A DNA stretch of 64,000 nucleotides, taken from contig NZ_JAPSHY010000012.1 in the NCBI RefSeq assembly GCF_031179285.1, positions 29,722-93,721 on the forward strand, read 5' to 3'. The notes under the pieces are model-generated. The model was given only the letters and a program-made list of their open reading frames with translations, did not search any database and had not been told where the DNA came from. This stretch comes from Microbacterium sp. (GTDB lineage Bacteria; Actinomycetota; Actinomycetes; Actinomycetales; Microbacteriaceae). Positions within the stretch are counted from its first letter, which is position 1; each line of letters starts with the position of its first letter. Shown here in pieces: positions 15,851-34,655 of this stretch. The position numbers and the translations under genes are program-made.

Positions 15851-18622
15851 GTGCCCATGCCCTCTCGTTCCCTCCCCGCCGCTGCCCTGACGGCGTGCCT
15901 CGCCGTCGGCGTCGTCGGCGTGGCATCCTTGCCTGCGTCGGCCGCACCGGCCGGTGCGGCCTTCTCACGCAGCGCGACCTATCCGGTCTACCTCAACCTC
16001 CCCGCAGACGTGGATCCCGCTTCCGAGACGGTCGCCGAGATCTCCACGATCACCGCCGACGGCACCGTGGTGTACACCGATGCGCCGGGCCAGCGGATCG
16101 GCTTCGTCGATGTGAACGATCCCGCCGATCCGACAGGGACCGGCTCGGTGTCGCTCACCGACATCGGGCATGCCGACGATCAGCCCACCTCGGTCGCCGC
16201 GTACGGCGACTACATCCTCGTGGTGATCGACGAGACCGGGGGCGACTTCACGGCGCCGCGCGGTCGCGTCGACGTGCTGCGCGCCTCGGACCGCGTCGTC
16301 GTGCGTTCGATCGATCTGGGCGGTCAGCCGGACTCCATCGACATCTCCCCCGACGGCGCATACGCCGCCATTGCCATCGAGAACCAGCGCGACGAAGAGT
16401 TCACTCCCGAGGGCGCGGACGAGGGTGATCTTCCGCAACTCCCCGCGGGATTCGTCCAGGTGCTCGAGCTCGGCAGCGACCCCGCCACCTGGACCGCCAC
16501 GGCTGTGCCGTTCGTGGCGGAGGACGGCACGCCGCTGCCGGTCGTCGCCGCCGCCGAACTCGACACGCCGCAGGACCCCGAACCGGAGTACGTCACGATC
16601 AACGGGGACAACCAGGCCGCCGTCACTCTTCAGGAGAACAACGGCATCGCCGTGATCGATCTGCCCAGCCGCGAGATCGTGTCGGTGTTCTCGGCCGGAA
16701 CGGTCGCACTGACCGGAGTCGACACCGCCAAGGACGGGCGCATCGACCTCAGCGGGACGCTGCCGGCAGCACCCCGTGAACCGGATGCGATCGCCTGGGT
16801 GGGCGACGGCATGGTCGCCACGGCGAACGAGGGCGACTGGAAGGGCGGAACGCGGGGCTGGAGCGTCTTCGACACCGCCGCCGGCGCCGTGGTGTGGGAT
16901 GCCGGCAGGTCGTTCGCCGACCTCGCGGTCCAGCACGGCCTGCACAACGAGGATCGTGCGGCGAAGAAGGGCGCGGAGCCGGAGGGACTCGCATTCGCCG
17001 AGTTCGACGGCACACCGTACGCCTTCATCGCCAGCGAGCGCTCGAACTTCGTCGCCGTCTACGACATGACCGACGCGGCATCCCCGGTGTTCGAGCAGGT
17101 GCTGTTCACCACCAACGGCCCCGAGGGGATCCTCCCGGTCCCGGAGCGCGACCTGTTGATCGTGTCGAGCGAGACCGACGATGCGGGCGCAGGCGTCCGC
17201 GCGTCGCTCAACGTCTATTCCTTCGGCCAGGATGCCGGCTCGCAGCCCAGCATCGTGTCCGACGTCTCCGCCGCCGGCCCGATCGGGTGGTCGGCGCTCG
17301 GAGCACTCTCCGGGCACCCGACCGACGCTTCGCTCGTGTACGCGGCGAGCGACGCCGTGCTCGCCCCCGCGACGATCTTCACGGTCGACGTCGACGCGGC
17401 ACCGGCTCGGATCACGAGCGCGATGCAGATCACCGAGGGAGGCGCGCCCGCGGCCCTCGACGTCGAAGGCCTTTCCGCGGCTGCCGACGGCACGTTCTGG
17501 CTCGCAGCGGAGGGCGCAACCGGCGCCGGGAACGAGATCGTCCGTGTGGACGCCGACGGCGAAGTGCTCACCCGCCATCCTCTCCCCGCGGAGGTCGCGG
17601 CGCACGTCGGCAAGTGGGGCTTCGAGGGTGTGACGATCACCGGCAGCGGCGACAGCCTGCGGGTGTGGACAGTCATCCAGCGCCCGTTGTGGACGGACCC
17701 CTCCGACCTCGCTGCCGGTACCGTCGACGGCGAGGCGGTGACCCGTATCGGTCGGCTCAACCCGGCGACAGGTGAGTGGAGTTGGTTCGGATACCGCCTC
17801 GATGCGGCAACGGTCGCCGGCGACTGGATGGGCCTGTCGGAGATCACGGCGATCGACGATGACACCTTCGCGATCGTCGAACGCGACAAGCTCAACGGTC
17901 CTGCCGCGGCGGTGAAGCGCGTGACCCGCGTGGACGTCCCCGAAGACTCCGAGCCGGTACCCTTCGGCCAGCCGCTCACGGTTCTCGAGAAGACGACCGC
18001 CATCGACATGCTGCCGCATCTTCGTGACACCGCCGGCTGGACCCAGGAGAAGCTCGAGGGCTTCGCCTTGGCCGCCGACGGCCGCCTCTACGGCGTCACC
18101 GACAACGACGGGCTGAAGGACGCCACCGGAGAGACCGTCTTCCTGCGGCTCGGCACCGCCTCGGAGGTCTTCCCGGATTCGGGCGGCGAGGAGCCGGCAG
18201 AACCTTCCCTCTCGGTGAGCCCCGCGACGGTGCAGGCGGGTTCGTCCGTGACGATCAGCGGTCGCGGCTTCCCGGCCTCGGCAGAGGTGCGCTTCGAACT
18301 GCACAGCGCCGCCGTGGTGCTGGGCAGCGCGATGGCGGATGCCGCCGGAAACGTCCGCTTCGTCGCCACGATCCCGGCCGACACCGCCGCGGGTGCGCAC
18401 GAGATCGTGGCCTTCGCGGGTGACCTGACGGTGCGCGCCGCCCTCGCCGTCACGGCGTCGGGTAGCGATGCCGCGCCGGGAACGGGTTCGGGTGCCGGTT
18501 CACAGGACGGCGACCTCGCATCCACCGGTGGGGAGACGGCATGGCTGCTGCCGGTGGCCGCCGCTGCCGGCCTCCTGCTCGCCGCCGGCGCGCTGCTGGC
18601 GCTCCGCCGCCGCAACGGCTGA
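15851..18622 (+). CDS. Secreted, wall-anchored phytase-like esterase
   Basis: 923 residues with a signal peptide (about residues 1-31, ending ASAAPAG). The body is beta-propeller-like, with motifs such as SIDISPDGAYAAIA and GLAFAEFDGTPYAFIASERS. The second half resembles the esterase-like / phytase-like family (GLSAAADGTFWLAAEGA, EKLEGFALAADGRLYGVTDN). An Ig-like segment (about 780-875, VSPATVQAGSSVTISGRGFP) precedes the sorting tail LASTGG, hydrophobic stretch, RRRNG. This suggests anchoring by a class E-type sortase. The substrate, possibly a phosphoester, is unknown. The initiator is GTG at 15851; ATG 15857 is an alternative. Confidence 0.82.
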   Translation: MPMPSRSLPAAALTACLAVGVVGVASLPASAAPAGAAFSRSATYPVYLNLPADVDPASETVAEISTITADGTVVYTDAPGQRIGFVDVNDPADPTGTGSVSLTDIGHADDQPTSVAAYGDYILVVIDETGGDFTAPRGRVDVLRASDRVVVRSIDLGGQPDSIDISPDGAYAAIAIENQRDEEFTPEGADEGDLPQLPAGFVQVLELGSDPATWTATAVPFVAEDGTPLPVVAAAELDTPQDPEPEYVTINGDNQAAVTLQENNGIAVIDLPSREIVSVFSAGTVALTGVDTAKDGRIDLSGTLPAAPREPDAIAWVGDGMVATANEGDWKGGTRGWSVFDTAAGAVVWDAGRSFADLAVQHGLHNEDRAAKKGAEPEGLAFAEFDGTPYAFIASERSNFVAVYDMTDAASPVFEQVLFTTNGPEGILPVPERDLLIVSSETDDAGAGVRASLNVYSFGQDAGSQPSIVSDVSAAGPIGWSALGALSGHPTDASLVYAASDAVLAPATIFTVDVDAAPARITSAMQITEGGAPAALDVEGLSAAADGTFWLAAEGATGAGNEIVRVDADGEVLTRHPLPAEVAAHVGKWGFEGVTITGSGDSLRVWTVIQRPLWTDPSDLAAGTVDGEAVTRIGRLNPATGEWSWFGYRLDAATVAGDWMGLSEITAIDDDTFAIVERDKLNGPAAAVKRVTRVDVPEDSEPVPFGQPLTVLEKTTAIDMLPHLRDTAGWTQEKLEGFALAADGRLYGVTDNDGLKDATGETVFLRLGTASEVFPDSGGEEPAEPSLSVSPATVQAGSSVTISGRGFPASAEVRFELHSAAVVLGSAMADAAGNVRFVATIPADTAAGAHEIVAFAGDLTVRAALAVTASGSDAAPGTGSGAGSQDGDLASTGGETAWLLPVAAAAGLLLAAGALLALRRRNG

Positions 18623-18680
18623 GACACCGAGAACGCGCGAACCGCCCTTCCCGAGGCACGGGAAGGGCGGTTTGTGCGTT
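18623..18680. terminator. Bidirectional terminator, copy 1 of a 58-bp repeat
   Basis: Stem AACCGCCCTTCCCG (18640-18653) pairs with CGGGAAGGGCGGTT (18659-18672) around a 5-nt loop, with an outer AACGC/GCGTT extension. It lies between the convergent esterase and DUF559 genes. An almost identical copy lies exactly 1030 bp downstream at 19653 (53 of 58 positions the same, by eye). Confidence 0.85.
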
Positions 18681-18685
18681 GTCGA

Positions 18686-19576
18686 TCAGTCGGCGACCCG
18701 AAGATGGCGACGAATGCGAGCGATCAGTGCGCTGGCACCGTCGCGGAGATCGTCGGCCCCGATGAGGATCACTCGGTACCCGGCATCCTCCAGTAGCTGG
18801 ATCCTGGTGAGATCCTGCAGCCAACGCTTTCGTGATCGGCGATGCTCGTCGCCCTGGTACTCGAGCAGCAGACGCGCTGCGCGGTAGCCGAGGTCGCCGT
18901 GCAGAGTGCCGCCTGCCGTCGCGACCGCCAGCTGGACTTCCGGTTCGGGTAGTCCGCCGGCGACGAGCGCCAGGCGCAGAAGCGACTCGCGGGGCGAGTC
19001 GACCGGACACCGCAGACGCTCGAGGGCCCATCGCAGTGCTGCCGCGCCTCGGCGGGCCCCATGCCGGTGCACGGCCTCATCCAGGTTTTCCGTCGTGCAC
19101 AGGGGCAACTCCCGTCCGCGATCCGAGCGCTCGCCGCTCAGAAGGAAGTCGCCGACCGCGACCAGCCATTCGCGGGTCAGCACGACCGATAGGCCGCACC
19201 ATGTGTCGGCGGGGCCGAGCACGGGCAGATCTGCCACGTGGTACCGCTCCAGGTCGGCATCCTGTCGCTCCCATCCGACGACGCCGGCTCGCCGGATCCG
19301 CCCTCGCGCGCCGAGCGCGGTGACATGCAGCTCTTCCTTGTCGACGGACGTGGGCAGCGGCATCCGCCAGAGCTGCGCGGCCGTCGTGCGACTGAAGACG
19401 TGATGCTCCGCCATCACCGCCGTGAGGCTGATGCAGCGATTGCGCAGCGAGCGGACCGGGCCGTCGGCTCGAACGCCGTGGAACGGACGGTCGAGATCCC
19501 GTCCACGCAGCCGCTTCTCGGTCGTCCCGTTGCCGATGGCAGTGCGCACGCGGAAGATGCGCCCCTGCAGCGGCAC
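18686..19576 (-). CDS. DUF559-type endonuclease-like protein
   Basis: 296 residues. The C-terminal part has LLLEYQGDEHRRSRKRWLQD followed by RIQLLEDAGYRVILIGADDL, resembling the Vsr/DUF559 restriction-endonuclease-like fold, with the acidic residues of LEYQGDEH as likely catalytic groups. The N-terminal part resembles the AbiEi-like or uncharacterised modules found with DUF559 in actinobacteria. Such proteins are often multicopy in Microbacteriaceae; none has a firmly established role that I know. The gene is monocistronic and lies between two copies of a terminator repeat, suggesting a cassette gained or lost by recombination. Confidence 0.75.
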   Translation of the reverse strand: MPLQGRIFRVRTAIGNGTTEKRLRGRDLDRPFHGVRADGPVRSLRNRCISLTAVMAEHHVFSRTTAAQLWRMPLPTSVDKEELHVTALGARGRIRRAGVVGWERQDADLERYHVADLPVLGPADTWCGLSVVLTREWLVAVGDFLLSGERSDRGRELPLCTTENLDEAVHRHGARRGAAALRWALERLRCPVDSPRESLLRLALVAGGLPEPEVQLAVATAGGTLHGDLGYRAARLLLEYQGDEHRRSRKRWLQDLTRIQLLEDAGYRVILIGADDLRDGASALIARIRRHLRVAD

Positions 19577-19652
19577 GGGCAGTGGGGTTTGCGGTCGCTT
19601 CCGCCGATTCTGCCTGCGTCACCGCGTCCGTGTTCCGCTTCTCCACAGCTCG

Positions 19653-19710
19653 GACACCGAGAACGCGCGAACCGCCCTTCCCGGCGTCCGGGAAGGGCGG
19701 TTTGCGCGTT
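19653..19710. terminator. Bidirectional terminator, copy 2 of the 58-bp repeat
   Basis: Here the hairpin is more complete. GAGAACGCGC pairs with GCGCGTTCTC outside the AACCGCCCTTCCCGG/CCGGGAAGGGCGGTT core, leaving a CGT loop. It lies 26 bp after the aroG stop and 76 bp upstream of the DUF559 start, so it most likely terminates aroG. Compared with copy 1, four of the five differences are in the loop. Confidence 0.88.
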
Positions 19711-19736
19711 CTCGAGCCTCAGAGAGGCAAGCGGGC

Positions 19737-21077
19737 TCAGCGCTTTTCGAGCTCCTGCGCGACGAGGAAGGCGAGCTCGAGGCTCTGCATATGGTTCAGG
19801 CGTGGATCGCACAGGCTCTCGTAGCGGGTGGCGAGGCCCTCCTCGTCGATCTGCTCCGAGCCGCCGAGGCACTCGGTGACATCGTCGCCGGTGAGCTCGA
19901 CGTGGATGCCGCCGGGGAACGTGCCGACCGCCCGGTGCGCCTCGAAGAACCCGCGCACCTCGTCGACCACGTCGTCGAAGCGACGCGTCTTGTACCCGGT
20001 GGGCGTGGTGATGCCGTTGCCGTGCATCGGGTCGGTGACCCACAGCGGCTGCGCGCCCGAGTCGCGAACGGCCTCCAGCAGCGGCGGGAGGGCGTCACGG
20101 ATCTTGCCCGCCCCCATGCGGGTGATGAACGTGAGGCGGCCGGGCTCGCGGTCAGGGTCGAGCTTGTCGATCAGGGCGAGCGCCGTCTCGGGCGTGGTCG
20201 TCGGGCCGAGCTTGACGCCGATCGGATTGCGGATCTTGGAGAAGTAGTCGACGTGCGCGCCGTCGAGGTCTCTCGTGCGCTCGCCGATCCAGAGGAAGTG
20301 CGCCGAGGTGTTGTACGGGGTGTCGGTGCGCGAGTCGATGCGGGTCATCGGCCGCTCGTAGTCCATGAGCAGGCCCTCGTGGCCGGTGAAGAACTCGACG
20401 CGCTTGAGCTCGTCGAAGTCGGCGCCGGCGGCCTCCATGAACTTGATGGCGCGGTCGATCTCGGCGGCCATCCGCTCGTAACGCTGATTCGCCGGGTTCT
20501 GCGCGAAGCCCTTGTTCCACGAATGCACCTCGCGAAGGTCCGCGAAACCACCCTGGGTGAACGCGCGGATCAGGTTCAGCGTGGAGACGGCCGTGTGGTA
20601 GCCCTGGAGGAGCCGCCCTGGGTCGGCCCTGCGGGAGACTTCGGTGAAGTCGTAGCCGTTGACGATGTCACCGCGGTAGGCGGGCAGCGTCACATCGCCG
20701 CGAGTCTCGTCGTCGCTCGAGCGGGGCTTGGCGAACTGGCCGGCCATCCGGCCCATCTTCACGACCGGCATCGACGCACCGTAGGTGAGCACCACGGCCA
20801 TCTGGAGCACCGTCTTGATCCGGTTGCGGATCTGCTCGGCCGTCGCACCGGCGAAGGTCTCGGCGCAATCGCCGCCCTGGAGCAGGAACGCCTGGCCGGA
20901 TGCGGCACGCGCGAGACGCTCGCGGAGGTTGTCGACCTCACCGGCGAAGACCAGCGGCGGCAGGCCGGCGATCTGCTGCGAGACGGCAGCGACGCGGTCG
21001 GCATCGGGCCACTGCGGCTGCTGCTTGATGGGAAGGGAGCGCCACGCGTCAAGGGCGTCGATGTGGTGCTGAAGCAT
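19737..21077 (-). CDS. aroG: Class II DAHP synthase (3-deoxy-7-phosphoheptulonate synthase)
   Basis: First step of the shikimate pathway, joining phosphoenolpyruvate and erythrose 4-phosphate. It is the plant-like class II type: QPQWPDADRV at the N-terminus, the metal-binding FLLQGGDCAETF loop, KMGRMAGQFAKPRS, and the C-terminal LGGSEQIDEEGLATRYESLC. Length (446) is typical. In actinobacteria this enzyme is feedback-inhibited by aromatic amino acids and can activate a chorismate mutase partner (family knowledge). The gene is followed by a strong hairpin terminator; the acyltransferase upstream is 27 bp away on the same strand. Confidence 0.96.
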   Translation of the reverse strand: MLQHHIDALDAWRSLPIKQQPQWPDADRVAAVSQQIAGLPPLVFAGEVDNLRERLARAASGQAFLLQGGDCAETFAGATAEQIRNRIKTVLQMAVVLTYGASMPVVKMGRMAGQFAKPRSSDDETRGDVTLPAYRGDIVNGYDFTEVSRRADPGRLLQGYHTAVSTLNLIRAFTQGGFADLREVHSWNKGFAQNPANQRYERMAAEIDRAIKFMEAAGADFDELKRVEFFTGHEGLLMDYERPMTRIDSRTDTPYNTSAHFLWIGERTRDLDGAHVDYFSKIRNPIGVKLGPTTTPETALALIDKLDPDREPGRLTFITRMGAGKIRDALPPLLEAVRDSGAQPLWVTDPMHGNGITTPTGYKTRRFDDVVDEVRGFFEAHRAVGTFPGGIHVELTGDDVTECLGGSEQIDEEGLATRYESLCDPRLNHMQSLELAFLVAQELEKR

Positions 21078-23784: not shown

Positions 23785-23817
23785 GCGATCGCCCCAAAAT
23801 CCGACCGGGGCGGCGAG

Positions 23818-23850
23818 AAAAGACCCCCGCAGATCCTGCGGGGGTCTTTT
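23818..23850. terminator. Bidirectional intrinsic terminator
   Basis: A perfect 15-bp stem (AAAAGACCCCCGCAG / CTGCGGGGGTCTTTT) with a 3-nt loop, T-rich in both directions. It lies between the convergent fadD and def genes and serves both. Confidence 0.95.
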
Positions 23851-23856
23851 CGTGGA

Positions 23857-34605: not shown

Positions 34606-34620
34606 TCGACAACCTCGCAC

Positions 34621-34650
34621 GAAGGCCCGGCACACATGTGCCGGGCCTTC
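34621..34650. terminator. Bidirectional intrinsic terminator
   Basis: A perfect 14-bp stem GAAGGCCCGGCACA / TGTGCCGGGCCTTC with a 2-nt loop. It lies between lpdA and the convergent flavin monooxygenase gene, 5 bp before the latter's stop. Confidence 0.9.
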
Positions 34651-34655
34651 GTGCG

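Follow-up and report, generated by a model that had tools for sequence, protein, structure and literature searches.

The window analysed here, a 64,000-nucleotide stretch of a Microbacterium sp. contig, carries a nuclease gene enclosed by two closely similar hairpins, which raises the question of whether these are ordinary terminators that resemble each other or whether gene and hairpins belong together. The gene (18686–19576, minus strand; 296 aa), which was assigned to the DUF559/MTES_1575 (Vsr-fold) kind from the ORF list, a profile match and the predicted fold, is bordered by two unstranded palindromes of 57 bp. The left copy (18628–18684) separates its stop codon from that of the convergent gene for a phytase-like esterase/choice-of-anchor protein (15851–18622, plus strand), a neighbour that is often missing here in relatives. 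The right copy (19658–19714) lies between the start of the nuclease gene and the stop codon of its upstream neighbour aroG (19737–21077, minus strand; class II DAHP synthase), which marks the orthologous site in relatives. No transposase gene was found inside the repeat-bounded unit, where the nuclease gene is the only recognisable one.

The palindrome pair and its nuclease

An earlier note on this DNA had described one terminator hairpin present twice, with 53 matches between copies spaced exactly 1030 bp apart, and enclosing the gene. Direct comparison of 18623–18680 with 19653–19710 reproduces both the offset and the matches (53/58), and the minus-strand ORF indeed lies between the two repeats; the pair is real, but the true unit is shifted by about 5 bp to the palindromes given above. 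The full repeated block comprises 18615–18685 and 19645–19715 (71 nt, 87%). Both palindromes have the ends CGAGA...TCTCG; the left one is slightly decayed, and the right one is nearly perfect with pairing at 26/27 arm positions. Folding as ssDNA yields −31.1 and −38.2 kcal/mol, respectively (z = −8.2 and −10.7 against shuffles). Neither copy is expected by chance, and the hairpin pattern had no match in the shuffled window. Only the left-hand hairpin is located between convergent genes; the right-hand one is flanked by tandem genes because the nuclease gene is co-oriented with aroG.

The designation of the repeats as terminators was not borne out. Neither copy is followed by a T-run, and no terminator-like site (a GC-rich stem and then a T-run) was detected in 18400–19900. 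Elsewhere in the window, two further strong hairpins at 34616–34655 (40 bp) and 23817–23851 (35 bp) are probably ordinary terminators. A search against Rfam returned sub-threshold chance matches only, and an RNA family was dropped on these grounds. Ordinary terminators that are alike by chance were ruled out by the shuffles, the absent T-run and the rarity of the repeat in the genus; among the matches listed, only about 5 of 198 Microbacterium genomes (G000, G078, G099, G048 and G013) have its arm sequence as a true palindromic pair. With seven copies in its own genome, the hairpin is also not the widespread general terminator that the earlier note had allowed for. A different form of the terminator explanation holds that ordinary transcription terminators have become alike through gene conversion or local duplication. 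The position of the palindromes just downstream of stop codons favours it, whereas the missing T-run and an exact 57-bp unit with fixed ends that is rare in genomes of the genus do not.

The nuclease scores 16.2 bits against DUF559 (PF04480) and 16.3 bits against MTES_1575 (PF18741), which are below the curated Pfam cut-offs of 20.6 and 38.2, respectively. Its C-terminal domain contains the pattern E...D...ExQGDxH...D..R, and residues E197, D228, E239 and H245 do not vary across 13 aligned relatives. An AlphaFold2 model (pLDDT 82.8) was searched with Foldseek. The best nuclease matches were to Vsr (1cw0/1vsr; probability 0.99–1.0, with a weak E of ~0.03), and the catalytic domain of the homing endonuclease I-Bth0305I was matched with a probability of 0.94. 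The model suggests that the C-terminal domain adopts a Vsr-like nuclease fold, which agrees with the DUF559-type assignment made earlier, although the Pfam match itself is below the cut-off. A weak match to Rv2827c of Mycobacterium tuberculosis, which we take to be a DNA-binding protein, was also obtained, and the N-terminal part is perhaps a winged helix. A search of NCBIfam with the nuclease gave no family, and a search of solved structures by its sequence gave nothing meaningful.

The aroG site in relatives

In a set of 61 aroG loci, which were picked partly for having the nuclease gene, the gene is located directly downstream of aroG in 15 and is missing in 46; no transposase was seen. The gene-less loci mostly carry one shorter hairpin, followed by a kinase or esterase gene. 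The empty site with a single hairpin that the earlier note envisaged does exist, but its hairpin is an ordinary shorter terminator and not the 57-bp repeat. Palindromes of at least 50 bp on at least one side were observed at 8/15 loci with the nuclease gene compared with 4/46 without it (Fisher P = 6e-4), a difference that speaks against terminators homogenised by conversion or duplication. The palindrome sequence at this site varies by species (CGAGAACGCGC, CGAGACTTCACG, CGAGAGCGCACA and CGACCTGTCACA).

The nucleases linked to aroG group essentially as a single clade, with a few members located elsewhere. This suggests that the gene probably occupied the aroG site early in the history of the genus and was often lost, and that a recent gain is less probable. 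No convincing decayed remnant of the nuclease was found in the 435-bp aroG gap of G078. The esterase-like gene adjoins aroG only in the window genome, G165, G142 and G021 among the 61 loci (L045, L066 and L073), and is itself variable at this site, since a kinase takes its place as the aroG neighbour elsewhere.

At the gene-less aroG loci of G125, G134, G126, G186, G001 and G128, the usual single terminator has an inner stem, GAACCGCCC...GGGCGGTTC, which is common to this terminator and the 57-bp palindrome of the window; the latter adds an outer CGAGAACGCGC arm. Perhaps one of the two structures served as the basis for the other. The resemblance of the inner stem to the terminator commonly found at aroG in the genus is a further point for terminators made alike by conversion or duplication.

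The patchy presence of the gene, the predicted Vsr-like nuclease and the naming of the MTES_1575 domain after a multidomain conflict protein (PMC3710099) would be consistent with a defence or toxin module, in which the palindromes serve a DUF559-type nuclease as self-marks or as recombination points for movement between genomes. We consider such a module quite unlikely. PADLOC gave no match to a defence system, and relatives of the nuclease were not found in viral contigs and are few on plasmids. No partner gene was seen at the aroG loci, and at most of them there is no room between aroG, the nuclease gene and the next gene for a partner toxin gene (AbiE-type toxin-antitoxin). Moreover, the aroG locus is fixed with a mostly vertical pattern, and a defence role leaves dozens of solo palindromes unexplained.

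Palindromes around the nuclease family and across genomes

Palindromes of ~57 bp bracket ~300-aa relatives of the nuclease in Microbacterium, Cryobacterium, Plantibacter, Promicromonospora and other genera. At 59 loci from public genomes, 64 palindromes were detected in 35.1 kb of nuclease flank compared with 10 in 398 kb of 'far' control regions, which are the rest of the same loci. A flanking palindrome is present on at least one side at 42 of these loci and on both sides at 19; the detection misses decayed copies, and ~30% of loci have no detectable flanking palindrome. The order-level search identified a nuclease relative in 100/149 genomes. With a slightly laxer threshold, 29 further loci from this set gave a flanking palindrome at 20 and on both sides at 17, with 37 palindromes in 19.1 kb of flank compared with 3 in 67.9 kb. 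The best hits of a PF18741 search across the order were mostly large multidomain proteins, unlike the stand-alone form, and were therefore left out of the flank statistics. The order-wide concentration around the nuclease family, together with the far-flank control, contradicts the explanation by homogenised terminators. It is equally at odds with the earlier proposal that the gene is a passenger of its flanking repeats, as the family has palindromes of its own kind throughout the order.

The lengths of the flanking palindromes peak at 56–59 bp, and most types that were read are 57 bp long, start with [CT]GAG and have no asymmetric tag. The upstream and downstream copies at one locus match with a mean identity of 0.84, compared with 0.43 between loci. 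Palindrome identity is 0.93 at nuclease identities of at least 80% and falls to the background level below 50%. The palindrome thus follows the nuclease only among close relatives, which indicates fast turnover of the palindrome while the pair at a locus stays alike. The nuclease recurs as the palindrome partner in at least six genera, where the palindrome sequences are unrelated. Distant Microbacterium paralogs, including two in the genome of the window, each have palindromes of their own kind, and two plasmid relatives (Arthrobacter, 29–32% identity) have one palindrome each. Upstream of one paralog (L169, G086), three near-identical 57-bp palindromes (TCCCCCGTCACG...) occur in series, 99 bp apart. 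No papers that join DUF559/MTES_1575 with palindromes were found in the open-access literature.

The palindromes are also dispersed. The earlier note had raised the prospect of further copies in the genome, and five solo copies of the 57-bp unit accompany the flanking pair. Promicromonospora iranensis has ~50 copies in G311 and ~64 in G312, and a reversed-pattern control in this species gave none; Plantibacter genomes carry roughly a dozen to 18 copies and Microbacterium G171 carries ~18. Six of 198 Microbacterium genomes have the CGAGACTTCACGWATGTC palindrome as a pair; five of the six encode a close nuclease, which is present in just 20/198 (co-occurrence P = 3.6e-5). Among 23 copies of 57 bp in G311, the outer 10 positions do not vary. 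Changes at the inner positions affect both sides in a way that preserves pairing, an effect that weakens towards the loop; what is maintained is therefore the paired structure itself. A second palindrome family in Promicromonospora (~62–64 bp, GGTCGGCA type) was observed near the nuclease locus and elsewhere (L231 2568–2631; L143 2804–2867; L225 171–232).

The solo copies are intergenic and located near gene ends, with 21 between tandem, 17 between convergent and 2 between divergent genes; three were scored inside ORFs, possibly owing to gene-prediction errors. The preponderance of tandem or convergent sites (38 compared with 2) would suit terminators that conversion or duplication has made alike, an explanation that we nevertheless regard as unlikely given the evidence above. 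The hairpins occupy terminator-type positions and may act as terminators as a by-product. Dispersed and conserved sites, together with the weak match to Rv2827c, could alternatively indicate a DNA-binding regulator or nucleoid factor whose regulon of binding sites is formed by the palindromes, with no mobility involved. However, the sites lie at gene 3´ ends and not at promoters, the putative nuclease residues are invariant, and near-perfect 57-bp palindromes with compensatory changes exceed the usual operator, which makes a regulator improbable.

Movement of the palindromes is slow or old. The sites of P. iranensis are mostly common to both genomes, with ~94% identity, which therefore indicates slow movement. 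No target-site duplication was apparent in the flanks of 11 Promicromonospora copies, which are old sites and were read by eye, and the data contain few single-palindrome insertions with clean edges. G000 and G078 have at least one solo site in common. A candidate clean empty site (L218 versus L296, from the two P. iranensis genomes) was rejected because another hairpin occupies the same place. At this orthologous gene end (L296 ~1637–1678; L218 1459–1523), one genome carries a 57-bp palindrome, and a hairpin of 42 bp that is unrelated to it stands in the other. Another candidate, a difference of 1.5 kb at L237, was likewise rejected as a palindrome event; it consists of a glutamate dehydrogenase-like gene next to a shared palindrome.

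In Plantibacter, genes were gained exactly between two palindromes. At two places, the sister species G313 and G315 have one palindrome and G314 has two with genes between them: an alpha/beta hydrolase and a regulator in L366 (palindromes at 674–744 and 2874–2944) and, in L146, an SDR gene together with one of TetR type immediately behind the nuclease, with all names taken from reading the translations. The earlier proposal of transposase-free gene gain between doubled hairpins is thereby seen twice, although at loci other than aroG. G314 also carries a 65-bp palindrome of a different type that G315 lacks (L258 2480–2544). In L246, L260 and L262 of Plantibacter, a 61-bp palindrome of yet another type (CGAGGGCCGGATGGAATC) was found, at the edge of which a ~590-bp indel begins in one species. 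Gene conversion alone could account for the alike copies, and homologous recombination alone could account for the cargo between palindromes.

Short dispersed palindromes with cargo between them also resemble miniature inverted-repeat elements that are moved by another transposase, with the nuclease gene as a frequent hitchhiker. This explanation is highly improbable: a Y1/RAYT transposase (Y1_Tnp, PF01797) was detected in 0/8 palindrome-bearing genomes by a search that was positive in the E. coli control, no target duplication was apparent in the flanks read, and a hitchhiker would hardly be the recurrent partner of unrelated palindromes in so many genera.

A proposed palindrome system and its relation to known systems

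Taken together, the pattern suggests a small, spreading DNA repeat of a kind not described before, which does not depend on the known REP transposase. We favour, as rather likely, a REPtron-like system that extends across the order, in which a Vsr-fold nuclease gene lies between two ~57-bp palindromes of its own, solo copies occupy intergenic sites and a cut-and-repair mechanism is inferred. The nuclease would recognise its own palindrome as a DNA hairpin, a cruciform or paired inverted sites, and would nick or cut it. Subsequent repair would copy the palindrome to new sites and keep the copies within a genome alike, and palindromes would become points of DNA gain or loss. We give about an even chance to the fuller proposal for this order of Actinomycetota, namely a REP-like system in which a Vsr-fold nuclease, by cutting and repair, spreads and homogenises its own 57-bp palindromes, and in which the palindromes are docking points where genes are gained.

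Widespread as they are, DUF559-type nucleases have no settled role; one large branch is now tied to a concrete DNA partner. If the proposed system is real, the REP way of life, in which the gene is stable and its palindromes spread, has come about with an unrelated enzyme. One class of dispersed hairpins, readily mistaken for terminators, would then have an explanation, and genes could be gained at palindromes by a transposase-free route. No reports of REPs in these bacteria were found in the open-access literature, and 'Actinobacteria' are not mentioned in the REP papers PMC3733652 and PMC6006769.

Compared with the DUF559 and REase_MTES_1575 families (PF04480, PF18741), the protein has the same C-terminal active-site pattern together with the predicted Vsr fold, but it is a stand-alone protein of ~300 aa with a long N-terminal part and scores below the curated cut-offs. 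The predicted nuclease fold resembles that of Vsr and I-Bth0305I, and breakage and repair would be a possible way of spreading. Homing would require an allele that lacks the element, and aroG loci without the nuclease gene (empty sites) do occur among relatives. In contrast to these enzymes, the present gene resides outside an intron or intein, has no known target, and has paired palindromes and a stable locus. TIRtrons, which are Y1 transposases with unrelated long terminal inverted repeats (PMC3733652), similarly have long inverted repeats around the gene, some of which are dispersed. The enzyme is different, and each flank of the present system is a complete palindrome.

The closest resemblance is to the REP/RAYT system (TnpA_REP), or REPtron, the anatomy and definitions of which follow PMC3733652 and PMC6006769. 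In both systems, each palindrome type has one gene, which palindromes of that type flank; solo copies occur intergenically by gene 3´ ends at tens per genome; several gene/palindrome pairs may coexist in one genome; and the gene seems to stay stable as its palindromes spread. The enzyme is a predicted Vsr-fold nuclease here and an HUH tyrosine transposase there. The palindromes are ~57 bp long without a GTAG/CGTC foot, whereas REPs comprise 20–40 bp with GTAG (or CGTC) at one end, and the present system occurs in Actinomycetota. The anatomy matches that of a REPtron, but a Y1 HUH transposase was not found in the eight genomes searched and the repeats lack the GTAG/CGTC tag; we therefore propose that the system described here works like a REPtron without being one.
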